A stretch of DNA of 35,125 nt. Source: Fidelibacterota bacterium (GTDB taxonomy: Bacteria; Fidelibacterota; Marinisomatia; SCGC-AAA003-L08; D37C17). The notes below the pieces were generated by a model that worked only from the letters and a program-made list of their open reading frames with translations, was not told the origin of the DNA and did not search any database. The position numbers and the translations under genes are program-made. How positions within the stretch are numbered: position 1 is the stretch's first letter; each line of letters opens with the position of its first letter. Shown here piece after piece: positions 17,985 through 34,971 of this stretch. The DNA lies in contig PANV01000040.1 of the NCBI GenBank assembly GCA_002707765.1, positions 1 to 35,125 on the forward strand. Direction: 5' to 3'.

Positions 17985-19006
17985 AAAAAAATAACTTACA
18001 TATAATTTTTTGGTTAAATACCTGTCTTATTTTAATTTTTATAATGATTTTAATTGGAGGGGCCACTCGTTTAACCCAATCTGGTTTATCAATGGTAGAT
18101 TGGAAGCCAGTTATGGGTATAATTCCACCAATAAGTGAAAATCAATGGATAGAATCATTCGAAGAATATAAAAAATTTCCTGAATATCAAAAAGTAAATA
18201 AATTTAGGCAAATGGATTTATCAGGATATAAAAAAATATTTTTTTGGGAATATTTACATAGGATTTTTGGAAGAATCATTGGCTTAGTATTCATTATTCC
18301 TTTTGCTTTATTTTTATATAGAAAGAAATTACCTGATAGGCTTATAAAACCAATATTATTTGCAATCTTTTTAGTGATTTTTCAGGGTATTTTGGGTTGG
18401 TTTATGGTCAAAAGTGGGTTAGTTAACAACCCTCATGTTAGTCATTACCGTTTATCAGCGCATTTGATTTCTGCATTTTTCTTATTTGGTTATACTTTCT
18501 GGATAAAACTTACCATCACTTCTGAAAAAGTAGATAAAATCAAAAATCATTTTCTTTCTAGGCATATTAATCTATTATTTATTTTATATTTAATTCAGGT
18601 TCTTTTTGGTGCATTTATTGCTGGAACAAAAGCTGGATTACTATGGAATACGTTTCCTCTAATGGAAGGTAAATTAATACCAGATGGTTTAATGGCGATT
18701 CAACCATTTTATATGAATTTTTTAGAAAATATGAAAACTTTTCAATTTTCACATAGATTTTTAGCATTAATTATAATGGTATATGCTGGTTGGTATTTTA
18801 TGAAAACACAAGGGGAATTTTATAATAAGTTTACTGGTATGCTCTTTATGGCTTTTATTATTCAGTTTTATCTAGGTATAATAACTTTGTTATTGAAAGT
18901 ACCTGTTGTTTTAGGTGTTGTTCATCAAGGTATGGCAGCATTAATTGTTTTGATTTTAGTTCAAATAAAATTTTCAATTACCCACGCTGAGACCATTAAT
19001 AGATAA
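17981..19006 (+). CDS. ctaA: Heme A synthase (COX15/CtaA)
   Basis: IGGATRLTQSGLSMVDWKPVMGIIPP, FFWEYLHRIFGRIIG, HYRLSAHL, FQFSHRFLALI, HQGMAAL. Confidence 0.95.
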   Translation: MKKNNLHIIFWLNTCLILIFIMILIGGATRLTQSGLSMVDWKPVMGIIPPISENQWIESFEEYKKFPEYQKVNKFRQMDLSGYKKIFFWEYLHRIFGRIIGLVFIIPFALFLYRKKLPDRLIKPILFAIFLVIFQGILGWFMVKSGLVNNPHVSHYRLSAHLISAFFLFGYTFWIKLTITSEKVDKIKNHFLSRHINLLFILYLIQVLFGAFIAGTKAGLLWNTFPLMEGKLIPDGLMAIQPFYMNFLENMKTFQFSHRFLALIIMVYAGWYFMKTQGEFYNKFTGMLFMAFIIQFYLGIITLLLKVPVVLGVVHQGMAALIVLILVQIKFSITHAETINR

Positions 19007-19357
19007 AATATATTCAATAGCATCTAATAAATCTTCATCTGAACAATCAATACATCCACCTTTGTAAGGCATTGGTCCTTTTTCACCCATATAACCATTG
19101 TAAACGTTGGAGTAAATTTCAATTTTATTCTTTTTAGATATTACCCTTGACCATGAAAGACTATCATTAAGCATAATGGAACCTCCACTACCATAAAGAT
19201 GGCACGTGATACATGCCTTATTGAAGACTTTTCTTCCGTTTTTTAAATCAGCGGAGTAGCTATTAACAAATGAAAAGTTTTCTTTTGTATCATCTTGATT
19301 ATTTTTACTGCAACTCAACACTAAAATGAATATTAAAAAAAATAGCTTTTTTATCAT
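18974..19357 (-). CDS. Cytochrome c5-like lipoprotein
   Basis: LIFILVLSCSKN lipobox; one CITCH heme motif; GPMPYKGGCIDCSDEDLLDAIEYIL c5-type ending. Confidence 0.85.
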   Translation of the reverse strand: MIKKLFFLIFILVLSCSKNNQDDTKENFSFVNSYSADLKNGRKVFNKACITCHLYGSGGSIMLNDSLSWSRVISKKNKIEIYSNVYNGYMGEKGPMPYKGGCIDCSDEDLLDAIEYILSINGLSVGN

Positions 19358-20810: not shown

Positions 20811-20950
20811 AGTCAAATTTAATTTTACTATTATCTTTATTAGGGTTTACATTTCTTTTTTTTGTCAAAGAAATAATAGATCTTAAAAAGGAAGTAAGAA
20901 AGTTAAATAAAATAGTTAGCCATTTACTTAAAAAAAAGAGTAATAAATGA
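20807..20950 (+). CDS. Small single-TM protein with basic C-terminal helix, 47 aa
   Basis: GTG start overlapping upstream stop; MKSNLILLLSLLGFTFLFFVKEIIDLKKEVRKLNKIVSHLLKKKSNK; ATGA overlap with next gene; absent from ORF track. Confidence 0.58.
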   Translation: MKSNLILLLSLLGFTFLFFVKEIIDLKKEVRKLNKIVSHLLKKKSNK

Positions 20951-21792
20951 GTGAAAATTTAAAAGATAATAATATAAATGAGAATCCAAGTAGAGTCTAT
21001 GCCCTATTTTATTCTTTTTTTCTTATTCCATTTATGATAGCCATTTTTGGAGCTTTATTCTTCTTTATGTTCCAATTTTTGACATATGAAAAAAGTACTC
21101 CAATTGACTTGTTAGAAAATATACAATCTGGTTCTTCAACCAAAAGATGGCAATCAGCATTTGAATTATCTAACATGCTTGATAAGTCTGAGGTTATTAA
21201 TAAAGAACTTTTTAATAACAAGATGATTTTTCTTTATGAAAAATCAAAATATGATGATTCAAGAGTCAGAACTTATTTAGCTCTGGCAATGGGAAAGACT
21301 AAAGATTATTCTTTTGGTCCCTATTTGTTAGAAGGATTGAATGAAGATGAAGATTTAACTAATCGAATAGCTGCAATTCAGTCATTAGGAATGTTGCAAT
21401 ATAAAGAAAGCTGTTCAACTCTAGAATTGATAATTAAGAATTCGATTCATGATTCTGAAAAACTTGCTGCAATCATATCATTAGGAGTTATTGGTGATTC
21501 GAAATACAAGCAAATATTAATTGATATGCTAGATTACGAAGAACCTAATATAAGGTGGGATTCAGCAATTGCTCTTGCAAAAATGAACGATGATTCAGGA
21601 ATTAGTATTATTATTAATCTCTTAGATAGGGATTATTACAGTTTATTTCCATCCAAGGCCAATGGGACTGGAGTAAATGTAGATGAAGTAGATAATTCTA
21701 TCTACATCGCTATTGCAGTAACTCAAAAATTAGTAGATGATAGATTCAAAGAAAAGTTGACTTTTTTATCAAAAAATGATAAAAGTATATAA
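20947..21792 (+). CDS. Membrane-anchored HEAT-repeat protein
   Basis: One N-terminal TM segment then repeats such as DDSRVRTYLALAMGKTKDYSFGPYLLEGL, DLTNRIAAIQSLGML, EPNIRWDSAIALAKMND. Confidence 0.75.
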   Translation: MSENLKDNNINENPSRVYALFYSFFLIPFMIAIFGALFFFMFQFLTYEKSTPIDLLENIQSGSSTKRWQSAFELSNMLDKSEVINKELFNNKMIFLYEKSKYDDSRVRTYLALAMGKTKDYSFGPYLLEGLNEDEDLTNRIAAIQSLGMLQYKESCSTLELIIKNSIHDSEKLAAIISLGVIGDSKYKQILIDMLDYEEPNIRWDSAIALAKMNDDSGISIIINLLDRDYYSLFPSKANGTGVNVDEVDNSIYIAIAVTQKLVDDRFKEKLTFLSKNDKSI

Positions 21793-21898: not shown

Positions 21899-22573
21899 AT
21901 GAAACTTACAAAAGAAGAGAAACAATCTCTGATTCAAGCAAAAAGTGAAACAGACTGGTACTCTATTTGCGATGAAATCAAATCAAAGAGAAATGGTATT
22001 TATCCAAATTATTTAGCTAGAGAAATTTTAGAAATATTCAATAATAAATTTCCTGTTGATAAATATAAAGACTTATCTTTTGGTCAAATAATTAATAGGA
22101 AGTCCTTTCTAAATTGGTTAACACTTGGATGGTTAGCATTTGCTGGAGCGACAGGAGGTTTTTTTACTGTGATAATAAGATTTCTGTTTCCAAATGTTTT
22201 ATTTGAGCCGCCCCAAAGCTTTAAAATAGGTTTTCCAAATGACTTTGAAGCTGGTAAAGTTGACCTAAGATTTAAAAAATCTCATAATGTTTGGATTGTA
22301 AGGGATGATGAAAAAATTATTGCCTTGTCAACTGTCTGTACTCATTTAGGGTGTACTCCTAACTGGTTGGAAGCAGATAGGAAGTTTAAATGTCCATGCC
22401 ATGGTAGTGGATTTCGTTCATCAGGCATGCATTTTGAAGGTCCGGCTCCAAGGCCACTAGAAAGATATAGAATTGTTTTATCTAATGATGGTCAAATTTT
22501 AGTTGATAAAACAAAGAAATTTAATTATGAAAAAGGTGAATGGAATAGATCAGAATCATTTTTGAAAGTTTAG
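21899..22573 (+). CDS. Rieske iron-sulfur subunit of a cytochrome bc-type complex
   Basis: CTHLGCTPNW...CPCHGSGF; one TM segment after a roughly 70-aa N-terminal extension. Confidence 0.93.
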   Translation: MKLTKEEKQSLIQAKSETDWYSICDEIKSKRNGIYPNYLAREILEIFNNKFPVDKYKDLSFGQIINRKSFLNWLTLGWLAFAGATGGFFTVIIRFLFPNVLFEPPQSFKIGFPNDFEAGKVDLRFKKSHNVWIVRDDEKIIALSTVCTHLGCTPNWLEADRKFKCPCHGSGFRSSGMHFEGPAPRPLERYRIVLSNDGQILVDKTKKFNYEKGEWNRSESFLKV

Positions 22574-22591: not shown

Positions 22592-23386
22592 ATGCCAGAA
22601 GATAAGAAAAAAGAATCATTATTAGAAAAAGTAGGGAATTCTCCTGTTTGGAAATCTATTTTTAGATCAGGAGTTCCAAGAACTAGAAGGCAAAGAATGT
22701 ATGCTGTTTTAGGAAATGTTTTTTTACATTTACATCCAGCGCGTTTACCCAGACATGCAGTAAAGGTTGGCTACACATGGTGTATGGGTGGATTATCCTT
22801 CTTTTTATTTGTAGTTCTTACAATTACGGGAATTTTATTAATGTTTTATTATAGGCCTACTGTAGAATATGCATTTACTGATATCATAGATTTAGGTGAA
22901 CAAGTTCCATTAGGTATAATGAGGGAAATTCATAGATGGGGTGCGCATTGTATGGTTCTGACAACATGGCTCCATATGCTCAGAGTTTTTATGACTGGAT
23001 CTTATAAACCTCCAAGGGAATTTAATTGGGCTGTTGGTGTAATTTTAATGACTCTTACTCTTTTATTAAGTTTTACAGGTTATCTTCTCCCATGGGATCA
23101 ATTAGCAATTTGGGCTGTTACTGTTGGAACTAATATGGCTAGAGCAACACCTTTTTTAGGTTCTGAAGGCCCAGGTGCTTCTTTACTTGCTATTGGAGAT
23201 ATTAATTTAATTCATTCAGCTTCTGATGTAAGGTTTGCATTATTAGCTGGAAGGTTTGTAGGCGAAGCAACTTTATTAAGATTTTATGTTCTTCACTGTA
23301 TTGCTGTTCCGTTTATAGCGATGATTTTCATGGCAGTTCATTTTTGGAGAATTAGAAAAGATGGGGGAATCTCAGGGCCTTTATAA
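22592..23386 (+). CDS. Cytochrome b6-like subunit (N-terminal half of cytochrome b)
   Basis: His pairs HRWGAHCMVLTTWLH and HCIAVPFIAMIFMAVH (14 residues between second pair, b6-type), GYLLPWDQLAIWAVTVG. Confidence 0.95.
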   Translation: MPEDKKKESLLEKVGNSPVWKSIFRSGVPRTRRQRMYAVLGNVFLHLHPARLPRHAVKVGYTWCMGGLSFFLFVVLTITGILLMFYYRPTVEYAFTDIIDLGEQVPLGIMREIHRWGAHCMVLTTWLHMLRVFMTGSYKPPREFNWAVGVILMTLTLLLSFTGYLLPWDQLAIWAVTVGTNMARATPFLGSEGPGASLLAIGDINLIHSASDVRFALLAGRFVGEATLLRFYVLHCIAVPFIAMIFMAVHFWRIRKDGGISGPL

Positions 23387-23389
23387 AAT

Positions 23390-24508
23390 ATGATTGAAAC
23401 GTTAAAAAATACAATAGATTATTTATCTACTCCAACAATATCATTCACTGTAATTACAGCTATATTCCCGTTTGTATTTCCACCCACTGATTGGTTTGAT
23501 AGAATAAATAGAAAGTTAAAAATCGATAAGCTTTGGACTAACACAGGTGGTTTTATTCAGTTTATTCTTATTACAGGTTTTTTTGTTTTGGGTTATCAAG
23601 ATCCAAATTTTAAAATCATATTAATGAAGGGTGATAATTTTCCAATAGTACTAATGGTTTATAGTATGGCATTTTTTACTTGGTATGCTATGAAAAAATC
23701 TTACATTAATGATGCTAGGCTTGATGAAGGGAAAAAACCAATGGAATATCATGATCCTGAGGATAAGGTTTTAGTTTGGCCCGATTTGGTATATATTGAA
23801 TTTATTTGTTTAATTCTATTTATGGTTTTTTTAATTGTTTGGTCTATTTTAGTACCAGCTCCATTGGAGGAACCTGCAAACCCTGCTGCAACTCCCAATC
23901 CATCTAAAGCTCCATGGTATTTCTTGGGATTACAAGAGATGCTTGTTTATTTCGATCCCTGGTTGGCTGGGGTAATCTTTCCAACGCTAATCATTGTTGG
24001 TATGTGTGCCATTCCTTACATTGATATTAATAAAAAAGGAGATGGTTATTATTCTTTTAAAGAACGTAGAGTAGGATATTTTATATTTATGTATGGATGG
24101 GTGGTCTTGTGGGTCTATTTGATTATTATTGGTACATTTTTCAGAGGACCTAATTGGAATTTCTTTGGTCCATTTGAATATTGGGATCCTCATAAGCTTG
24201 AAGTATTGAATAATGTTAATTTATCTGAATATTTCTGGGTTATTGGTCTTGGTCAGCCACTCCCTTCTAATATCTTATTAAGAGAATCTATCGGATTTTT
24301 AGTTACTGGTATTTATTTATTTGTTTTACCTGTTCTCCTTGCAAAGACAGTTTTAAAAAAAATGTATGAGGCCTATGGTCCTACCAGATATACTTTTTTA
24401 ATGATTTTAGGTTTAACCATGTTAGCCCTTCCTATAAAAATGTATCTTCGTTGGTTTTTTAATCTCAAGTATATAATTGGAATCCCTGAGTGGTTTTTTA
24501 ATATTTAG
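23390..24508 (+). CDS. Cytochrome b C-terminal / subunit IV-like protein with extra TM segments
   Basis: NPSKAPWYFLGLQEMLVYFDPW (APWY at the PEWY position); 372 aa. Confidence 0.88.
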   Translation: MIETLKNTIDYLSTPTISFTVITAIFPFVFPPTDWFDRINRKLKIDKLWTNTGGFIQFILITGFFVLGYQDPNFKIILMKGDNFPIVLMVYSMAFFTWYAMKKSYINDARLDEGKKPMEYHDPEDKVLVWPDLVYIEFICLILFMVFLIVWSILVPAPLEEPANPAATPNPSKAPWYFLGLQEMLVYFDPWLAGVIFPTLIIVGMCAIPYIDINKKGDGYYSFKERRVGYFIFMYGWVVLWVYLIIIGTFFRGPNWNFFGPFEYWDPHKLEVLNNVNLSEYFWVIGLGQPLPSNILLRESIGFLVTGIYLFVLPVLLAKTVLKKMYEAYGPTRYTFLMILGLTMLALPIKMYLRWFFNLKYIIGIPEWFFNI

Positions 24509-24509
24509 T

Positions 24510-27500
24510 ATGACACACAAGAACGACGAAAGATATTGGAATATTAAAAAACTAAATAAGTGGTTTGCTATATCAAGCATTCTATTTCTGCTATCATATG
24601 TTTGGATTTTTTATCACGATAATGATGATGAATTTAAACAATATCAAAGAGAATTTAGAAAACTCGAAATAGAAGTATCTAATAAAAAGCTCGAATCAGC
24701 TTTATCTGATGTTCAAGATCAGCGTGTAGAATACGAAGAAAAATATAATATTGAGCTTGATAAATATAATTCAAAAATCGTTGAGATTGATTCTCTGAAA
24801 GCAAATCTGGATTATACAAAAGGTTTATTTTATAAAGCTAATATGGATTATTTATTTAAGAAAGCAGAGGTTGATGAACTTAAGTATCTTTATGAAGATG
24901 AAATTGTTCACTTTGAGGATTACTCTCACAAATACGATAATGATGAAGACCACTCTAAAGTTGAAGTTCATCACGATCACAATAGTAATTCTGAATACAG
25001 AGAAAAGTATTATGAATCGATAGAATTGATGAAAAATCTCAAGATTATTAAAGAAAAGTATGAATTACAAGTTCTTGATATTGAATCTACAATTAAAAAT
25101 ATGGGTGCAGAACTTAAAAATAAGAAAGATGAATTGAATGAGTATTTGAAAGAGGTAAATCTTATAAATAATAAAATTTTAAAACTTGATAGAACTAAAA
25201 TGACATTTATGAATCAGCTTGGTGACCTCGTTCGTGATTTACCAATTTTAGATTTCATGGATCCATATTATAAGGTTAATCAAGTAGTAGCTCATGATAT
25301 TAAATATGATGTTAATTTTGCTCAGGTACCAAGTGTTGATAGATGTACTAGTTGTCATTTAGGTATTAGTAATCCTGATTACAAAGATGCTCCTCAGCCA
25401 TTTACTAGTCATCCTAATCTTGATCTTTTTGTATCAAGTTCATCACCCCATCCTTTTGAACAATATGGATGTACAAGCTGCCATTCAGGTAGAGGAAGAG
25501 GTACAGGATTTGTATCATCAGTTCATATGCCTGGTTCTCCAGAACAAAAAAAAGAATGGGAAGAGAAATACGACTGGAAAAAAATGCATCATTGGTTACA
25601 ACCAATGTTACCAACAAAATACACCCAGGCAGGATGTTTTAAATGCCATGAAGCTGATCCGATTCTTGCAGGTGGAGAGAAACTAGCTTTGGGACTTATG
25701 TTAATTGATCAGTCTGGTTGTAATAATTGTCATCATATTGAATCATACCAAGCAATGGGGAAAAGTGGTCCGCCTTTAACTCATTTAGATGAAAAATTAG
25801 ATAAAGATTGGGTTAAGAAATGGATTAAAAATCCACAAAGTTTTAGATACAATACCTGGATGCCGCATTTCTTCGATCAGTCAAATAATTCAGATGAAGA
25901 ATCTGTAAAAAGAAGTAATGCTACAATTTATGCTATAACGGAATATTTATATCCTGATGGTGATAAAGAAAATTTCGATAACTCTAATGAGTTTATAGGC
26001 GACGCTGAAAATGGTCAGAAATTATTCAATGCAGTGGGATGTCAAGGATGTCATGTAATTGAAACGGAATCTACGGAATTAGGAGATGTAGATGTACCTT
26101 ATGAAATGTATATTTCAAATCATGGTTATGAGCCTGATACATCAGGTGTTGGTTATGAAAAAATGGATAGATATACTCTATTAAAATACCAGGGTCCAAA
26201 TTTAATTGGTATGGGGTCAAAGTCAGATGCTAAATGGATTTATAATTGGATCAAACATCCTGAAAAGTACTGGCCAGATACCAAAATGCCAAACCTAAGG
26301 TTAACCCATGAAGAAGCAAAAGATATAACAGCCTATCTTTTAACTTTTGAAAATGAAGAATTTGAAGATGAAATTGCAGTAACTGAAGATAGGGAAGAAC
26401 TGAATAATATTGCTAGAAGATGGATGATGAAATCATTTCCAAAAGTTGAGGTCGATGCAAGACTGAGTACCATGAGTGATGCTGCAATTGACGAGTATGT
26501 TGCTAAAAAAAGTATAAACTATTATGGATGTTATACATGCCATGATATGGATGGATATGAAAACGGTAAACCTATTGGTGCTGAATTAACTTATGAAGGT
26601 TCTGTTCCTGTTAGTAAGTTAGATTTTGGTCATATCCATGATATAGATCATACAACTCACGCATGGTTTGAGCAAAAGTTAGCTAATCCTAGAATTTTTG
26701 ATAAACATAAAATTGTTGCTCATGAAGATAAGAGTCGTATGCCTAATTTTTATTTTAAACCTGAAGAAATCGAAGCAATTGTCACAGCAATTTTAGGCTT
26801 TACTAATGTAAAAATTGCAGATAGTAAAATTACTTATAATTTAGTTGACGATAAGTCAGTTTTTGAAGGTTATAAATTGATTAACCAATATAATTGCCAA
26901 GGATGTCACGTTATAGAAAACTTCGGTGGTCATATGGTTGATGTTATTGGTAAGATAGAGAACGCACCACCGAATTTAAATACTCAAGGTGCTAAAACTC
27001 AGCCTGATTGGTTATTTAATTTCTTTAAAAATCCAGCCACCATCAGACCTCATTTACAAGTAAGAATGCCTGCTTTTAAATTTACGGATGGTCAATGGAA
27101 TTCAATCATCAAGGCTTTTCAGCATCTAGATGAAAGAAGTCTGTTAATTGAAGACTCATTTGCAGTTGATATTAATTCTGCTAAGTTTAAAGCTGGAGCT
27201 AAGTTGCATGAATTTGGAGCTTGTAATAATTGTCACTTTTATGGAGATCAATTTCCAAAACAAACTCCTGAAACATGGGCTCCTAACCTTGCAATGACAA
27301 AAGAAAGACTACGACATGATTGGGTAGTTAGATGGCTTGATAATCCTCAAGCAATTATGCCTGGGACTAAAATGCCAGCTCCTTACATACCTGATTCTAT
27401 AACCTTATCGCTTGATAATGCATTAGAAACATGGGGTAAAGACCTTATGAGCTTAGATGGAAATAGACAAGCTATGCTTGAAGGTCTGACGGATTATATT

Positions 27501-27617
27501 TACAGTATTGAAGGATCTAAAGATATATCCACACTTGTTAAAGAATATTTCAAGATAAACGGATATGAATTTGATACTGATGTAGAAGAAGATGATTTTG
27601 AAGATGAAGATTGGTAA
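24510..27617 (+). CDS. Large octaheme c-type cytochrome with N-terminal TM anchor and coiled coil
   Basis: Eight CxxCH motifs: CTSCH, CTSCH, CFKCH, CNNCH, CQGCH, CYTCH, CQGCH, CNNCH; ATG 24510 just after subunit IV stop preferred to TTG 24477. Confidence 0.9.
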   Translation: MTHKNDERYWNIKKLNKWFAISSILFLLSYVWIFYHDNDDEFKQYQREFRKLEIEVSNKKLESALSDVQDQRVEYEEKYNIELDKYNSKIVEIDSLKANLDYTKGLFYKANMDYLFKKAEVDELKYLYEDEIVHFEDYSHKYDNDEDHSKVEVHHDHNSNSEYREKYYESIELMKNLKIIKEKYELQVLDIESTIKNMGAELKNKKDELNEYLKEVNLINNKILKLDRTKMTFMNQLGDLVRDLPILDFMDPYYKVNQVVAHDIKYDVNFAQVPSVDRCTSCHLGISNPDYKDAPQPFTSHPNLDLFVSSSSPHPFEQYGCTSCHSGRGRGTGFVSSVHMPGSPEQKKEWEEKYDWKKMHHWLQPMLPTKYTQAGCFKCHEADPILAGGEKLALGLMLIDQSGCNNCHHIESYQAMGKSGPPLTHLDEKLDKDWVKKWIKNPQSFRYNTWMPHFFDQSNNSDEESVKRSNATIYAITEYLYPDGDKENFDNSNEFIGDAENGQKLFNAVGCQGCHVIETESTELGDVDVPYEMYISNHGYEPDTSGVGYEKMDRYTLLKYQGPNLIGMGSKSDAKWIYNWIKHPEKYWPDTKMPNLRLTHEEAKDITAYLLTFENEEFEDEIAVTEDREELNNIARRWMMKSFPKVEVDARLSTMSDAAIDEYVAKKSINYYGCYTCHDMDGYENGKPIGAELTYEGSVPVSKLDFGHIHDIDHTTHAWFEQKLANPRIFDKHKIVAHEDKSRMPNFYFKPEEIEAIVTAILGFTNVKIADSKITYNLVDDKSVFEGYKLINQYNCQGCHVIENFGGHMVDVIGKIENAPPNLNTQGAKTQPDWLFNFFKNPATIRPHLQVRMPAFKFTDGQWNSIIKAFQHLDERSLLIEDSFAVDINSAKFKAGAKLHEFGACNNCHFYGDQFPKQTPETWAPNLAMTKERLRHDWVVRWLDNPQAIMPGTKMPAPYIPDSITLSLDNALETWGKDLMSLDGNRQAMLEGLTDYIYSIEGSKDISTLVKEYFKINGYEFDTDVEEDDFEDEDW

Positions 27618-27620
27618 ATT

Positions 27621-28280
27621 TTATATAGATTTATTCTTTTTAAGAATCATATAGGTTACAAGGTAAGAAAACAACCCAATCACAATCAAACCAATCAAAT
27701 AGTCAGGCCAATCAGAAAATAAAAGTGTTAAGTTTTTTCCTTCTGGCTTACTTGCAGTAAACCAATAGTTTGAGCCAAACATTTTATTAAAAACAAATGC
27801 AAAACAGAATATAAGTGCATTAATTAGAATACTTATAGAAAACATTTTTTTATTTATTGTAAATTTTTCTTTATATAATATTATAAAGAAAAAAATTAAA
27901 TTTGTATGAGATAGGTATAAATGAAAAAATTCTATCCAGTAAGAACTGACTACTAGATTAGAATTGGTTAATCCACTTATTCCTCCTCCTAAACTATTTA
28001 GTGCTAAAACTGGATAAAAAGTTTTATTCTTTAAAATAAAACTAATTAAAATTCCAAGTTCTGTAATATAACATAAATGTATTGGTAAATGAGTTCTAAA
28101 ATCAAAAGAATTATTAATCATTAAAACTAAATAATATGAAATGAAATTAATAATTAGTGAAAAAAATAAAATTTTATTGAGGATTTTGGTATTCTTAATT
28201 ACGAATTTAATTGAAAAAATTACGATAACAAATAATCCTGATATCAAAATATGATTATCAAGAAAAAATAATTTATTCAT
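27621..28280 (-). CDS. YwaF/TIGR02206-like integral membrane protein
   Basis: LPIHLCYITELGILISFIL, WIEFFHLYLSHTNLI, NKMFGSNYWFTASKPEGKNLTLLFSDWPDYLI. Confidence 0.72.
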   Translation of the reverse strand: MNKLFFLDNHILISGLFVIVIFSIKFVIKNTKILNKILFFSLIINFISYYLVLMINNSFDFRTHLPIHLCYITELGILISFILKNKTFYPVLALNSLGGGISGLTNSNLVVSSYWIEFFHLYLSHTNLIFFFIILYKEKFTINKKMFSISILINALIFCFAFVFNKMFGSNYWFTASKPEGKNLTLLFSDWPDYLIGLIVIGLFSYLVTYMILKKNKSI

Positions 28281-29131
28281 TAATTTAAATTTATAAAGTT
28301 AGATAGATCTCTTTTAAAATCAGAAGGTTTCCAGTCTGTACCACTATATGATTTAATTAATTTTTTATCTTTATCTAAAATTAGTGTTATCATTGTGTGT
28401 CCGATATTATTATCCTCAACACCGCCAAAAGAGATATTAGATTGTTTTGTAAGGAGTATTAGGTCATTATAATGATCTGTACTTGATAAAAATTTTATAT
28501 TAGGGAATTTTTCCTCAATTGAGCCATAATTTTTTTTAAGAATTTCTGGTGTATCAAATAAATAATCAAAGCTTAAAATAAGAAAATCAATATTTCTCTT
28601 GCTGAATGAATCAGCTAAATATTGATTTTTAGAAATTACAGCCGGGCACATGTTAGGAATGGGACATCTCGAAAAAATGAATGAAATGACAGTGTAATCT
28701 TTATTGTTATTGTAAAGAGTATATTTCTTAGAATTTGTTTTATAAAAATTAAAATCATCGAACTTGTCACCAATACTTTTAGGAGAATATAAATCATCTT
28801 GCCACAATTCGTCTAAGTTCTCAGTTTCTTGTCTCACTCCAATTTTTTTAAAATTGATAGTATAATGTGAGTCTTCAGTTATAATTAGGTTGAAACTTAC
28901 ACTATCAAGATTATTAAAACTATTCATGTTAACTTTTTTGTGAACATTCAAGTCCATAATCATGGGTTCCATAAAACCAGGGATTCTATCATGATCAATT
29001 TTAAAAACTCTTTTGCCTAGGTCTTTTTCAAGTATAACTCCAGTAACATTATAGTTTGGATTGGTATTACACGAGTAAATTCCAAGAATTATCATAAGTG
29101 ATAACCCTTTAAAAAAAAGAAAATATTTCAT
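28280..29131 (-). CDS. SCO1/SenC-family protein with N-terminal CusF-like copper-binding segment
   Basis: VTGVILEKDLGKRVFKIDHDRIPGFMEPMIMDLNV then VISFIFSRCPIPNMCPAVISKNQ and IGHTMITLILDKDKKLIKSYSG. Confidence 0.8.
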   Translation of the reverse strand: MKYFLFFKGLSLMIILGIYSCNTNPNYNVTGVILEKDLGKRVFKIDHDRIPGFMEPMIMDLNVHKKVNMNSFNNLDSVSFNLIITEDSHYTINFKKIGVRQETENLDELWQDDLYSPKSIGDKFDDFNFYKTNSKKYTLYNNNKDYTVISFIFSRCPIPNMCPAVISKNQYLADSFSKRNIDFLILSFDYLFDTPEILKKNYGSIEEKFPNIKFLSSTDHYNDLILLTKQSNISFGGVEDNNIGHTMITLILDKDKKLIKSYSGTDWKPSDFKRDLSNFINLN

Positions 29132-29139
29132 TATTTAAT

Positions 29140-29865
29140 TTATTTTTTCTTTTTAACTGGTTTTTGAAATTCAAAATCCGCAACAGTTGCACCATCTTCT
29201 GATACTTCAATGTTTAAAGAGTTATTTGCTGCAACATATTTTTTCTTTGGAAGATTTGAAAGTTTCTCTTGCCAAAAAACAATTTCATATTCACCAGCAG
29301 GAACATTTTCAATTTTGAAATTTCCATTTTCATCTGTAACTGCGAAGTAAGGGTGGTCTGCAACCATAATCCATGCTTTCATCCATGGATGTACATCACA
29401 TTTAACATAAAATGGTTCTTCTGCCTTGGAAAAAGTTTTTTTAATATCTGGAACACCAGCTGGCTGTGCAGAATTAAAACTTGGATTAACTTGTGATTGA
29501 GAGTTAACATTGTGAAGTGTTTTGTCACTATTTTTAATCGAAACCTCTTGACTAGTTGTGAATACATTTACATGAGGAGTATATATACATCCAACTTGAT
29601 CAATTATTCCAGTATTTTTGTTTAATTCACCATCAAATTTAACATCTTTAAGCCATACGATTACATTTTTAAACTTATTTTCTTCATTTAAGATAAAATC
29701 CTCTTTAACTGGTGCGATTTTATGAGAAGATCCGCAGATAGGATCTGAATCCATTTTTAAAGATTTGGCTGCTCTGTTTTTGCCCGCATATGAAACAGTA
29801 CCTTCAATTGTTCCAGCGAATAAGTTAAAAGAAATTGTAGTGATTAACATTAAAACTTTAAACAT
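29140..29865 (-). CDS. Secreted cupredoxin-like protein with carboxypeptidase-regulatory-like domain
   Basis: Signal peptide; DKTLHNVNSQ...PFYVKCDVHPWMKAWIMV; VTDENGNFKIENVPAGEYEIVFWQEKL. Confidence 0.78.
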   Translation of the reverse strand: MFKVLMLITTISFNLFAGTIEGTVSYAGKNRAAKSLKMDSDPICGSSHKIAPVKEDFILNEENKFKNVIVWLKDVKFDGELNKNTGIIDQVGCIYTPHVNVFTTSQEVSIKNSDKTLHNVNSQSQVNPSFNSAQPAGVPDIKKTFSKAEEPFYVKCDVHPWMKAWIMVADHPYFAVTDENGNFKIENVPAGEYEIVFWQEKLSNLPKKKYVAANNSLNIEVSEDGATVADFEFQKPVKKKK

Positions 29866-29944: not shown

Positions 29945-30433
29945 ATGATTATCTTTTATATATTAATGTTTTTGTCTTTTATTACATTATCTATTAATGG
30001 CTTACAATGGATTTTTAGATTCAATGTATTAAATGCTAACTATATTTCATTTTCTTTTGTATCAACCATATTATATATGTTTACGCAAACACTTATAATG
30101 TTCTATCTTATTGGAGCAGGCAAAAAAGTTAAAGAGTTAATTATACAATATGATTTGAATAAAGATACATATAATGACGTCTTGAAAATTAAGAGTGATT
30201 TATTTCCTCCATTAACATTAAATATACTTTTAGTTGGAACAGCTTTCGTTTTAGGAGGTGGTGTCCAAACAAAGGTTTTGAGCAAGTATTGGCATCATTC
30301 TATTTTTCTCTTTAGCCTAATACATTTTTTAAAAGTTATTTTGTTATCTCATAAGTCACTTATTAAAAATTCTGATATATTATCCATCGTTGGCTCTGAA
30401 CTCGATAATAAGTTAAAAAATAAGGATAATTAA
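29945..30433 (+). CDS. Hypothetical multi-TM protein
   Basis: 162 aa with several hydrophobic segments; upstream of oxidase operon. Confidence 0.6.
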   Translation: MIIFYILMFLSFITLSINGLQWIFRFNVLNANYISFSFVSTILYMFTQTLIMFYLIGAGKKVKELIIQYDLNKDTYNDVLKIKSDLFPPLTLNILLVGTAFVLGGGVQTKVLSKYWHHSIFLFSLIHFLKVILLSHKSLIKNSDILSIVGSELDNKLKNKDN

Positions 30434-30617: not shown

Positions 30618-30950
30618 ATGGCATCCAAAGTATATGATCACTTAAAGCAAGTTCCTGAATTACCTCAGAAGGTAAATACTAAGAAAACACGCCCAAAAAA
30701 AATTGCATGGGTAGACGAAGATAATTGTACAGGCTGTCAGGCTTGTATCCCTTTTTGCCCTGTAGATTGTATTGAACCTGTTCCAGCTGATAAATACACA
30801 TGGCCTCCAATTCCACCAGTACACGTTAGAGAAAATGAGTGTATAGGATGTCAGATCTGCGCAAAAGTATGTACCAAGTTAACCTGGGATGCTATTAGAA
30901 TGGTTAATACTAATGAGTACGAAGAAAGATTTGATACAGTAATTGATTGA
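30618..30950 (+). CDS. Ferredoxin-like protein with two 4Fe-4S motifs
   Basis: CTGCQACIPFCPVDC and CIGCQICAKVC separated by a Pro-rich segment. Confidence 0.88.
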   Translation: MASKVYDHLKQVPELPQKVNTKKTRPKKIAWVDEDNCTGCQACIPFCPVDCIEPVPADKYTWPPIPPVHVRENECIGCQICAKVCTKLTWDAIRMVNTNEYEERFDTVID

Positions 30951-30965
30951 TTTAATAGGAGAATT

Positions 30966-32645
30966 ATGAGCGACGAGCACCATCAAGAAAGTTTTTGGAC
31001 CAAATATATATTTTCACAAGATCATAAATGGATTGGAATACAATATGGAGTAACTGCGTTATTTTTTATGTTGTTAGGTTTTGTACTAATGATTGTTATG
31101 AGATATCAACATGTGCATTCAGGAACAATTTCTCCAGATACATACAATTCGTTTGGAGCAATGCATGGAACAATTATGGTATTTTTAGGAATCGTCCCTG
31201 TTATAGTTGGAGCATATGGTAATTATTTAGTTCCATTACAAGTAGGAGCTCCTGATATGGCCTTCCCTAAATTAAATATGGCAAGTTACTGGACTTATTT
31301 TTTAGGTGGCGTTACAATGCTTTATGGTTTTACTTTGCCTGGAGGTGCTGCAAATTCTGGTTGGACTTCGTATCCTCCATTAGCTGATATTGCAACTACG
31401 GGTCAAACTGTTTGGCTCATTGGCATGATATTTCTTATAACATCTTCTTTATTGGGATCTGTTAATATTATCGTTACTATTGTTCAACTTAGAGCGCCAG
31501 GTCTTACTTGGATGAGATTACCATTTTTTGTTTGGGCTCAACTTGTAACATCTTTTCTTTTACTTCTTGCATTTCCTCCACTAGAGGTTGCTGGAATATT
31601 TCAATTAATGGATCGAGTTGCAGGTACTAGTTTTTTTCTTCCTACGGGTTTAGTAGTAGGCGGAGAAATGATGTCAAATTCTGGAGGAGGTAGTCCTCTT
31701 CTTTGGCAACATTTATTTTGGTTTTTAGCACATCCAGAAGTTTACGTATTAATACTACCAGCAATGGGAATAATTGCTGAAGTTATATCAACTAACATTA
31801 GAAAACCTTTATGGGGTTACAGTTTAATGGTTAAATCTGTTATATTTTTAGGTTTTATGTCATTTTTAGTATGGGCCCATCACATGTTTTTAACAGGTAT
31901 GGGGCAGGGAATGAGTAATTTCTTTGCAATAACAACGATGATTATATCAGTACCATCAGTAATACTTTTAACATGTTTTATTTTATCACTTTATGGTGGA
32001 TCTATAAGGTATAATACTCCTATGTTATTTGCTTTAAGTTTTATACCAATGTTTGGTATAGGCGGTTTAACAGGTTTACCCCTGGGTCTTCCATTATCAG
32101 ATATTCCATTACACGATACATATTATGTTATTGGTCACTTTCACTATGTTGTTGCTCCAGGCACAATTTTTGCAATTTTCTCTGGGATTTATTTTTGGTT
32201 TCCAAAAATTACGGGTAAACCTCTAAATGAAATTCTTGGTAAAGTCCATTTCATTTTCTCTTTTATTTTTATGAATTTATTTTTTATGCCAATGTTTTTT
32301 CAGGGTTTGGCGGGTATGTCAAGAAGGCTTGCTGATGGAGGTCAATCTTATGCGCATACTCAAAATGTAATTCAATATAATGATTTCATGATGTACGCAT
32401 CTTGGGGTCTAGCCATAGCACAGTTGCCCTTCATAATCAATATAGTTATGACTTTGTTAAAGAAAACAGATAAAAATCCAGATCCAAATCCATGGGAATG
32501 TACAACTTTAGAATGGGTTGCTGCACCTTCTCCACCAATTGGACATGGAAACTTTGAAAAAGTTCCAAATGTTTATAGAGGAGCATATGATTATAGTCTT
32601 CCTGATGCTAAAAAAGATTATTTACCACAAAATGAAAAAGATTAG
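30966..32645 (+). CDS. ctaD: Cytochrome c oxidase subunit I (heme-copper oxidase A family)
   Basis: GAPDMAFPKLN, WFLAHPEVYVLILPAMGI, WAHHMF, HDTYYVIGHFHYV. Confidence 0.98.
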   Translation: MSDEHHQESFWTKYIFSQDHKWIGIQYGVTALFFMLLGFVLMIVMRYQHVHSGTISPDTYNSFGAMHGTIMVFLGIVPVIVGAYGNYLVPLQVGAPDMAFPKLNMASYWTYFLGGVTMLYGFTLPGGAANSGWTSYPPLADIATTGQTVWLIGMIFLITSSLLGSVNIIVTIVQLRAPGLTWMRLPFFVWAQLVTSFLLLLAFPPLEVAGIFQLMDRVAGTSFFLPTGLVVGGEMMSNSGGGSPLLWQHLFWFLAHPEVYVLILPAMGIIAEVISTNIRKPLWGYSLMVKSVIFLGFMSFLVWAHHMFLTGMGQGMSNFFAITTMIISVPSVILLTCFILSLYGGSIRYNTPMLFALSFIPMFGIGGLTGLPLGLPLSDIPLHDTYYVIGHFHYVVAPGTIFAIFSGIYFWFPKITGKPLNEILGKVHFIFSFIFMNLFFMPMFFQGLAGMSRRLADGGQSYAHTQNVIQYNDFMMYASWGLAIAQLPFIINIVMTLLKKTDKNPDPNPWECTTLEWVAAPSPPIGHGNFEKVPNVYRGAYDYSLPDAKKDYLPQNEKD

Positions 32646-32656
32646 GAGCTACGTTA

Positions 32657-33247
32657 ATGCAAATCCCATATAATGAAGAATTAAGGCCGGATACGGGTTT
32701 ATATAATGCCAAATTAGGAATTTGGTTATTTTTAGCATCTGAAGTAATGCTATTTGGTGCATTATTTTCTGCTTACATAATGCTTAGAACAAGTAATCCA
32801 TATTGGTTTGATATTAAAACTGTATTAAATATTCCATTAGCTACATTGAATACTGTTTTATTGATTACTTCTAGTGTTACCATGGTGATGTCATGGGTCG
32901 CTTTAAAGCTAAAAGATTTAAATAAATTTAAGTTTTATCTTGGAATAACATTGCTTTGTTCTTTTGGTTTCTTGATTGTTAAATACTTTGAATATGCTTC
33001 AAAATTTGAACATGGATTATTTCCTTCATCAAGTACATCTTTGGCTTGTTATTTTACAATGACTGGTTTACATGTTCTTCATGTACTTGGTGGAGTAGCA
33101 GTTTTTCTATATTTAATTGGCCCAGGAATTAAAATGTGGGATAGTGAACCAGAAAGGTTTACAAATAGAATTGAAGTTGTAGGTTTGTATTGGCACTTTG
33201 TAGATCTTGTTTGGATATTTTTATTTCCAGCACTTTATTTATTGTAA
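32657..33247 (+). CDS. ctaE: Cytochrome c oxidase subunit III
   Basis: KLGIWLFLASEVMLFGALFSAYIMLR, TGLHVLHVLGG, VVGLYWHFVDLVWIFLFPALYL. Confidence 0.96.
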   Translation: MQIPYNEELRPDTGLYNAKLGIWLFLASEVMLFGALFSAYIMLRTSNPYWFDIKTVLNIPLATLNTVLLITSSVTMVMSWVALKLKDLNKFKFYLGITLLCSFGFLIVKYFEYASKFEHGLFPSSSTSLACYFTMTGLHVLHVLGGVAVFLYLIGPGIKMWDSEPERFTNRIEVVGLYWHFVDLVWIFLFPALYLL

Positions 33248-33262
33248 TTATGAGGTATTCTT

Positions 33263-33628
33263 ATGAGCGAAGATATTAAACATCATATTAAAATTTATAG
33301 AAATGTTTTTATAGCATTATTAGTACTTACAGTAGCTACTGTAGGTGTGTCCTATATTCATTTTTCATCCCATGCAATGGGTTTAGCAGTAGGCTTATTA
33401 ATTGCATGTGTTAAAGGATATTTAGTTGCATCGCATTTTATGCATTTAAATGATGAGAGAAAATGGATTTATGGTACTTTAATATTTACAATGTTATTCT
33501 TTTTTGTTTTATTAGCTATGCCTATAATGTGGTACAATAATAGTGTTGGATATGGAAATGGTTCATATGAGAATGTACAACATCTTGATTCTAGCAAGTT
33601 GGACTATAAGAAAAAAGGAGGGCATTAA
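33263..33628 (+). CDS. Cytochrome c oxidase subunit IV family protein
   Basis: Three TM segments, YLVASHFMHLNDERKWIYG; after subunit III. Confidence 0.88.
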   Translation: MSEDIKHHIKIYRNVFIALLVLTVATVGVSYIHFSSHAMGLAVGLLIACVKGYLVASHFMHLNDERKWIYGTLIFTMLFFFVLLAMPIMWYNNSVGYGNGSYENVQHLDSSKLDYKKKGGH

Positions 33629-33630
33629 AA

Positions 33631-33828
33631 TTGTCTCTAAGATTGTTTCATATAATTTTTGTTTCTTTTGCAACTTTATTAATGATTTATTTTGGTTCTT
33701 GGTCTTATTTAATGTGGGACTTCTATGCAGATAGTGCTTACCTATCTTATATAGCTTTTAGTATTGTTGGTTCAATACTACTTATTTTTTATGGAAAAAA
33801 TTTTATTAACAAATATAAGAATCTTTAA
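33631..33828 (+). CDS. Small 65-aa membrane protein within oxidase operon
   Basis: TTG start with aaggagg upstream; MSLRLFHIIFVSFATLLMIYFGSWSYLMWDFYADSAYLSYIAFSIVGSILLIFYGKNF. Confidence 0.7.
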   Translation: MSLRLFHIIFVSFATLLMIYFGSWSYLMWDFYADSAYLSYIAFSIVGSILLIFYGKNFINKYKNL

Positions 33829-33829
33829 T

Positions 33830-34045
33830 ATGAAATATATAATTTTCTCAATCTTTTTAATTCAAAATATTTTTGCATGTGCAGTTTGTTATGGTGCTCC
33901 TGAACATCCTGTTACTCAAGGGATGAATAATGGTATTTTATTTTTATTATCTATTGTTGCTTTTGTTTTATCTAGTATTGCAGCTAGTATTTTTGTTTTA
34001 GTAAAAAGAGCTAGAGCTTATGAAATAGAAGGTGGGGTTGAATGA
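33830..34045 (+). CDS. Small membrane protein/lipoprotein with CxxC motif within oxidase operon
   Basis: MKYIIFSIFLIQNIFACAVCYGAPEHPVTQGMNNG...; ATG 33830 preferred to the upstream start at 33764; ATGA overlap with CoxII gene. Confidence 0.7.
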   Translation: MKYIIFSIFLIQNIFACAVCYGAPEHPVTQGMNNGILFLLSIVAFVLSSIAASIFVLVKRARAYEIEGGVE

Positions 34046-34971
34046 AAGAAGTAGAATTAAATGTTATAGATAGAATTGGTCAATTTATCAGTGACACATT
34101 TCTTAGTTTTCCCTATGATGGCTCAATGTTTGGTTTTAAAACTGATGTTTTAAATGGATGGGTTCATATGTTGATGTTGATTTTATTTGTTTTTTGGGGT
34201 GTTTTTCTGGTTTACGTATTAATAAGATTTTCTAGTAAGAATAATCCAAAAGCTTCTCATCAAGGATTAAAGGGTAAATTTTCAAAGTATGCTGAATTTG
34301 GGGTCATAGGGTTTGAGTTATTCTTATTATTTGCTTTGGCCATTCCTGGATATTATGATTTAAAGTATGAAAAATTAGAAGTAAAAGATGATTCTGAAAT
34401 AGAAATTAGAGTTATAGCCCAACAATTTCAGTGGAATATCCACTATCCAGGCGAAGATGGCGTTTTTGGTCAAACATATGCTGATTCAGTAGATGATGGA
34501 GCTCAAAATTTTATTGGACTAAGCAGACAGGGTTATGGTGCTGATGATATCGTGACAATGAATCAACTTCATATTCCTAAAGGTAAACAAATAAAGATAA
34601 GATTATCATCAAGAGATGTTATACATGGTTTTGCCTTGCCAGAGATGAGAGTTAAGCAAGATGCAATACCTGGAATGGAAATACCTATATATTTTACAGC
34701 AACAAAATCTAGTGATGAATACTTGGAATATCTAAAAGAGAATGATCCTGTTCGTTATAATAACAAATTAGATAAAGATCAGGACACTTATGATATGCTA
34801 CCTGAGAGTGTTAGAGACTCTTATTATAGAGGTTATCAAATAGCTTGTGCACAATTATGTGGGAATTCTCATTATTTTATGAAAGGATATATGCAAGTTC
34901 ATGAACCTGAAGATTTTGAAGAATGGTTGGTAAATAATAAACCTGAGGAAGAAGAAGAGGAAGAGTGGTAA
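34042..34971 (+). CDS. ctaC: Cytochrome c oxidase subunit II (CuA)
   Basis: VIAQQFQWNIHYPGEDG, SRDVIHGFALPEMRVKQDAIPG, CAQLCGNSHYFMKGYM CuA ligands; no CxxCH. Confidence 0.95.
   Translation: MKEVELNVIDRIGQFISDTFLSFPYDGSMFGFKTDVLNGWVHMLMLILFVFWGVFLVYVLIRFSSKNNPKASHQGLKGKFSKYAEFGVIGFELFLLFALAIPGYYDLKYEKLEVKDDSEIEIRVIAQQFQWNIHYPGEDGVFGQTYADSVDDGAQNFIGLSRQGYGADDIVTMNQLHIPKGKQIKIRLSSRDVIHGFALPEMRVKQDAIPGMEIPIYFTATKSSDEYLEYLKENDPVRYNNKLDKDQDTYDMLPESVRDSYYRGYQIACAQLCGNSHYFMKGYMQVHEPEDFEEWLVNNKPEEEEEEEW

Follow-up and report, generated by a model that had tools for sequence, protein, structure and literature searches.

The locus described here raises the question of what an octaheme cytochrome c does at the end of an operon for a Rieske/cytochrome b complex, and where its electrons go. 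The window, which is the whole stretch of 35,125 nucleotides that was analysed, is contig 40 of a Neomarinimicrobiota (SAR406) MAG of 1.30 Mb and 74% completeness, and complexes of this sort are discussed mainly for nitrogen-cycle specialists. The reading that we favour, with a probability of roughly 0.7, is that a b6-type Rieske/b complex, in which the octaheme cytochrome would replace cytochrome f or c1, serves as a complex III feeding the neighbouring aa3-type oxidase. It is built from gene content, motifs, conservation, synteny and co-occurrence, which were observed directly, and from an electron path and acceptor that we infer.

The octaheme cytochrome c and its operon partners

The operon comprises the following genes:

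20947..21792, + strand: HEAT-repeat protein (Pfam HEAT_2, 1e-14; one TM helix near the N-terminus, 15-48), which opens the conserved cluster
21899..22573, + strand: Rieske [2Fe-2S] subunit (PDB 9rk3, Kustd1480, E 7e-44)
22592..23386, + strand: cytochrome b6-like subunit (aligned to PDB b6 chains, E 1e-41)
23390..24508, + strand: subunit IV-like protein (residues 129-245 match PDB subunit IV; additional helices at either end)
24510..27617, + strand: octaheme cytochrome c, 1035 aa, which closes the HEAT/Rieske/b6/subunit IV/octaheme operon

The octaheme reading frame begins with an ATG one base past the subunit IV stop (a gap of 1 bp), and the gaps further upstream are 3 bp between b6 and subunit IV, 18 bp between Rieske and b6, and 106 bp between the end of the HEAT gene and the Rieske gene. 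The original prediction had assigned the octaheme to the Rieske, b6 and subunit IV genes and proposed a survey of such neighbourhoods. This assignment was borne out: 39 of 40 homologous loci retain the order HEAT-Rieske-b6-subunit IV-octaheme, and the HEAT gene is upstream in 40/40 homologous loci with enough flank. The 46 homologous loci comprise one from Phycisphaerae, with the rest being from Neomarinimicrobiota or from MAGs whose title says only 'bacterium' and whose gene content is the same.

The octaheme cytochrome carries eight CxxCH motifs (residues 279, 321, 376, 404, 511, 674, 796 and 905), a motif that occurred on average 0.008 times, and at most once, in 1000 shuffles of the same composition. 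All eight are invariant across 46 Neomarinimicrobiota homologs (with H283 undetermined in one sequence), as are the methionines of the five MP motifs (M451, M593, M744, M853 and M955), and the eight motifs and five methionines are also invariant in a 35-row alignment that includes one Phycisphaerae homolog. Pfam and NCBIfam models define a c7-like region (313-409), a SoxX-like c domain (402-480) and class-I c domains at 499-612, 786-866 and around 924-957. Each of the class-I hemes (404, 511, 674, 796 and 905) is followed, 47 to 82 residues downstream, by an invariant Met-Pro, in keeping with the earlier suggestion that the MP motifs mark several class-I-type domains. The protein therefore reads as a c7-like triheme part (279-380) joined to five class-I c domains with invariant, putative Met ligands. 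The three c7-like hemes are probably bis-His, with the invariant His301, His314 and His339 being candidate distal ligands of these first three hemes.

Residues 37-235 contain no proline, two glycines and 40% D/E/K/R. In the AlphaFold2 model (mean pLDDT 70.9), helices span residues 12-37, a long stretch 42-141 and a return stretch 162-226, with a loop between the long two; the pLDDT is mostly 80-90 on the two long stretches and falls below 50 at residues 247-338, the region of hemes 1 and 2. The model thus predicts a charged helical hairpin of about 200 residues (approximately 42-226). The N-terminal segment WFAISSILFLLSYVWIFY has positive-inside charges and lies below the Kyte-Doolittle cut-off of 1.6, and helix 12-37 is a plausible single TM anchor. 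The outline given in the original prediction, namely about 1035 aa, eight CxxCH motifs, an N-terminal TM segment and a coiled coil of about 200 aa, is thus matched by the reading frame, shuffles, conservation and structure prediction, with the TM segment at the level of plausible.

Against the PDB, the octaheme sequence matched single c domains and nothing more, and a structure search with the model, at a threshold of E 0.001, found no match in the PDB and returned mostly coiled-coil look-alikes. An identity as an HAO-type octaheme enzyme was dropped, because the domains are c7-like and class-I c and no HAO match was found in Pfam, NCBIfam or the PDB.

In the Rieske subunit, all of the cluster ligands (C147, H149, C165 and H168) are present and invariant, C152 and C167 form the disulfide pair, and Ser170 and Phe172 adjoin the cluster, as in Kustd1480. 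The b6-like subunit has the b-heme His pairs 114/128 and 235/250 (conservation in 42 sequences), and its invariant C64 aligns with the heme cn cysteine of b6. Beyond the b-heme ligands, it has four further invariant histidines (46, 48, 55 and 119). Subunit IV carries a nearly invariant APWY in place of the PEWY motif of the Qo site; the usual Qo glutamate is therefore missing, which counts against the complex III reading. The subunit IV model (pLDDT 55) is too weak for counting helices. No cytochrome f was matched in the window by Pfam or NCBIfam, the octaheme standing in its place, and the bc1 features of an unsplit cytochrome b and a cytochrome c1 are absent from the window's complex.

Relation to known Rieske/b complexes

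The original prediction regarded the architecture as novel, which the literature does not support. The Nitrospina gracilis genome paper described a Rieske protein, a split cytochrome b and an atypical octaheme cytochrome c, and noted that Kuenenia and Methylomirabilis have this operon as well (PMC3578206; 2013). In 2025, two Kuenenia complexes were reported that contain a b6-like cytochrome b, subunit IV-like proteins, hexa- or octaheme cytochromes c and an NAD(P) oxidoreductase, and one of the modelled complexes has a large multiheme c subunit with long wrapping helices (PMC12954380). In the window, the genes for a Rieske protein, a split b6 and subunit IV adjoin that of an octaheme cytochrome c, the gene arrangement by which R/b complexes are recognised. 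Given the operons of 2013, the Kuenenia complexes and the identity of its Rieske domain to Kustd1480, the architecture (Rieske/b6/subunit IV/octaheme) is of a known kind.

The closest likeness is to Kustd1480-1485 of Kuenenia stuttgartiensis (PMC12954380), which shares the b6-like cytochrome b, a subunit IV with extra helices and a multiheme c in place of cytochrome f. The Rieske domains are 52% identical (61/117 positions against 9rk3, covering the full length of the crystallised domain), and they share the Ser/Phe pair. The match to Kuste4569 (9rk4) has an E value of 3e-24, and the window Rieske resembles Kustd1480 more than it does Kuste4569 or any of the b6f Rieske proteins in the PDB. In Kuenenia, the large c subunit has long helices around the complex (Kustd1485 being compared by description only), and the hairpin predicted for the window octaheme may be their counterpart. 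They differ in that Kuenenia has an NAD(P) oxidoreductase subunit, whereas none is encoded in the window's operon, and in that the window adds a HEAT subunit, a separate ferredoxin, a copper protein and aa3 genes. In the Kuenenia complexes, an interface heme b is proposed to have as its ligand an N-terminal histidine of cytochrome b, Kustd1481 His62 or Kuste4571 His43 (compared by description only), and one of the extra histidines of the window b6, of which H46, H48 and H55 are invariant, could match this proposed interface heme.

The Kustd1480 Rieske protein has a potential of about +335 mV (PMC12954380), and by analogy with this one anammox protein we take the window Rieske to be of the high-potential type. 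Since the window's operon has no NAD(P)H module, this type is well suited as a control for the view that a Rieske of this kind points to NAD(P)H production.

Nitrospina gracilis and Methylomirabilis oxyfera resemble the window, by description, in having Rieske, split b and octaheme c genes in one operon; Nitrospina is aerobic (PMC3578206). Sequence similarity also extends to the Geobacter Ext proteins of NCBIfam, with the b6 matching ExtP (267 bits), subunit IV matching ExtQ (68 bits) and ExtS matching a stretch of the c subunit; however, all of these matches are below the curated cut-offs and the operon is different. Cytochrome b6f is similar in its split b6/IV and heme cn cysteine, but the window differs in the lack of cytochrome f, in APWY for PEWY and in a larger subunit IV.

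We also observed compact Rieske/b6/IV operons in three Neomarinimicrobiota genomes (L073:6112-11569, L074:6585-12472 and L075:2515-9304). These encode an NAD(P) oxidoreductase whose C-terminal part carries ferredoxin domains and an 8-heme cytochrome c of about 655 aa without the coiled coil (654 aa in L074, 659 aa in L075 and a slightly longer ORF in L073), which is homologous to the window octaheme over the c domains (193-214 bits). Their b6 has no heme cn cysteine and their subunit IV is short; genes for a Rieske protein and a monoheme c were seen in L074 and L075. Like Kuste4569-4574 of Kuenenia, they share with the window a Rieske protein, b6, subunit IV and a multiheme c. They resemble the anammox-type complexes, yet in another phylum, and for the L075 Rieske the best match is Kuste4569 (9rk4), modestly ahead of Kustd1480. 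The window type, in contrast, keeps the heme cn cysteine and has a Rieske closest to Kustd1480.

Distribution, oxidase and electron carriers

Outside the operon, the genes that bear on electron exit are:

18974..19357, − strand: small monoheme cytochrome c whose leader resembles that of a lipoprotein, an alternative carrier found in the closest relatives only
28280..29131, − strand: SCO1-like copper-chaperone candidate for the CuA site (family name by sequence inspection)
29140..29865, − strand: secreted candidate type-1 copper protein (by ligand pattern), a candidate periplasmic electron carrier
30966..34971, + strand: aa3-type oxidase genes (COX1 at 30966, COX3 at 32657, COX4 at 33263 and COX2 at 34042)

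The octaheme gene is present in 38 of 60 relatives and in 66 of 151 genomes of the phylum, the latter tally counting full-length matches and clear fragments and leaving out two weak matches (G073 and G074). We found no description of such a complex in Marinimicrobia/SAR406 in the open-access literature. The original prediction had named the oxidase as a possible destination of the electrons. It is the likely one, as in 24 of 32 loci COX1 follows the octaheme downstream at a distance of no more than about 8 kb. COX2 of the window has the CuA motif CAQLCGNSHYFM, and C156, M161, C162 and H245 of the SCO1-like protein are invariant in 24 sequences.

The Phycisphaerae homolog (L046:7980-12956) shares the coiled coil and the eight hemes, and at 1658 aa it has large inserts between hemes. 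It lies directly upstream of a copper protein followed by COX2-COX1, and no Rieske or b genes were found within about 8 kb upstream of it.

A second line of support came from alternative complex III. ORFs of the NrfD family with a length of 455-500 aa, a range chosen post hoc with the data already seen, were found in 4/38 genomes with the octaheme vs 14/22 without it (Fisher 3e-5; 0.002 at genus level). COX1 is present in 53 of the 60 genomes, including all 14 that have NrfD and no octaheme, and four genomes have both the octaheme and an NrfD of alternative-complex-III size. The two complexes thus look largely complementary and interchangeable upstream of the oxidase, which supports a complex III role. 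The octaheme complex would then be the apparent complex III of these small-genome marine bacteria (SAR406), alternating with alternative complex III.

These observations also bear on a different reading, in which the hemes form a wire away from the membrane to other acceptors such as nitrate or nitrite reductases or extracellular metals. A multiheme c with a c7-like part would suit such a conduit, and the Rieske/multiheme operons of Kuenenia and Nitrospira are tied to nitrogen-cycle enzymes (PMC12954380, PMC6606698). The aa3 synteny in two phyla and the complementarity with alternative complex III argue against it, however, as does an operon in which no outer-membrane porin or reductase gene was seen, and we regard this conduit as very improbable.

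In the favoured complex III reading, quinol would be oxidised at the Qo site, as judged by homology, and the high-potential electron would pass from the Rieske cluster to the octaheme. The latter would be held by its one TM helix, with the helical hairpin probably clasping the complex, and the electron may then run through the three c7-like hemes followed by the five Met-ligated hemes. It could leave for CuA in the oxidase by way of the linked copper protein, the small cytochrome c or direct docking. The second electron would pass through hemes bP and bN to heme cn.

In 29 of 32 loci the copper-protein gene lies downstream of that for the octaheme, and the protein's H118, C156, H159 and M162 are invariant in 40/40 sequences, including those of two compact operons and the Phycisphaerae contig. 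No curated cupredoxin model of Pfam matches it significantly, so the copper assignment is a pattern-based inference. The protein also has a carboxypeptidase-regulatory-like tail and is kept beside octaheme operons in two phyla.

As a sub-case of the complex III reading, the C-terminal class-I domains might dock directly on CuA in a III/IV supercomplex that needs no mobile carrier, which corresponds to the in-built wire to the oxidase of the original prediction. In G008, G017 and G020, which belong to a different genus in the family, PF00034 and PF13442 found no small class-I cytochrome c outside the octaheme, as expected for such a wire. Against this, the neighbouring copper protein is a conserved candidate carrier, other members have small cytochromes c, the genome of the window among them, and that genome also encodes a small (127 aa) Copper-bind-family protein. 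The wire is thus possible but not needed, and we consider direct docking to be unlikely.

A co-inherited ferredoxin

The ferredoxin gene lies between the copper-protein and oxidase genes:

30618..30950, + strand: 2[4Fe-4S] ferredoxin (FDX), 110 aa, cytoplasmic, with conserved Cys and a presence that follows the octaheme

The original prediction did not link FDX to the complex. FDX was found in 33/38 relatives with the octaheme vs 0/22 without it, and in 61/66 genomes with the octaheme vs 2/85 without it among the 151 genomes of the phylum, a set that overlaps the 60-genome set. Matches in the 60-genome set were bimodal, with none from E 1e-38 to the 1e-10 limit, and a weak match in G079 (a 436-aa protein, E 3e-12) was left out of the count. 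Two genomes, G095 and G111, have FDX but not the octaheme, and other listed members of their genera have the octaheme. The association emerged while several genes were being explored, and as the genomes are related and the sets overlap, P values for it are not independent.

Part of this association is linkage, because FDX is on the octaheme's contig in 15/33 genomes and lies near the cox genes in the window; in the other 18/33 the two are on different contigs. In the deep-branching L076 and L077, the order is octaheme, copper protein, FDX, with FDX two genes past the octaheme in the same orientation. Since COX1 is found both with and without the octaheme, FDX tracks the complex and not the oxidase. 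The co-inheritance suggests that FDX is an unexplored cytoplasmic partner of the complex. From these genomic patterns, FDX belongs to the octaheme system and would probably exchange electrons at the cytoplasmic side of the complex, with a putative docking and direction. What looks partly new in the window's system is its wiring and not its architecture.

One form that this exchange could take is ferredoxin-coupled bifurcation, in which the low-potential branch through bP, bN and cn reduces FDX while the oxidase pulls the high-potential branch through the octaheme. FDX would then replace the iron-sulfur part of an NAD(P) reductase, comparable with the NAD(P)H-making proposed for the Kuenenia complexes. 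The near-perfect co-occurrence of FDX and octaheme, also when unlinked and with no such pattern for COX1, is consistent with this coupling, as are the Rieske of high-potential type and the sister operon of the same phylum, where an NAD(P) oxidoreductase that ends in ferredoxin domains stands beside a compact octaheme complex. However, the heme cn cysteine is kept in the window, as in the quinone-reducing b6f, whereas the sister type linked to NAD(P) lacks it. This speaks for ordinary reduction of quinone at the N side. FDX itself matches generic families best (the rnfB model, below its cut-off), which also weighs against a dedicated coupling, and overall we judge bifurcation to be unlikely. 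If true, it would join an aerobic complex III, pulled by O2, to the ferredoxin pool. The reverse direction, with FDX feeding quinone through heme cn, is possible. The linked FDX makes the role of heme cn and the N side in b6-type complexes directly testable.

A 162-aa membrane protein (29945-30433), with no match in Pfam or NCBIfam, is encoded between the copper-protein and ferredoxin genes in many loci.
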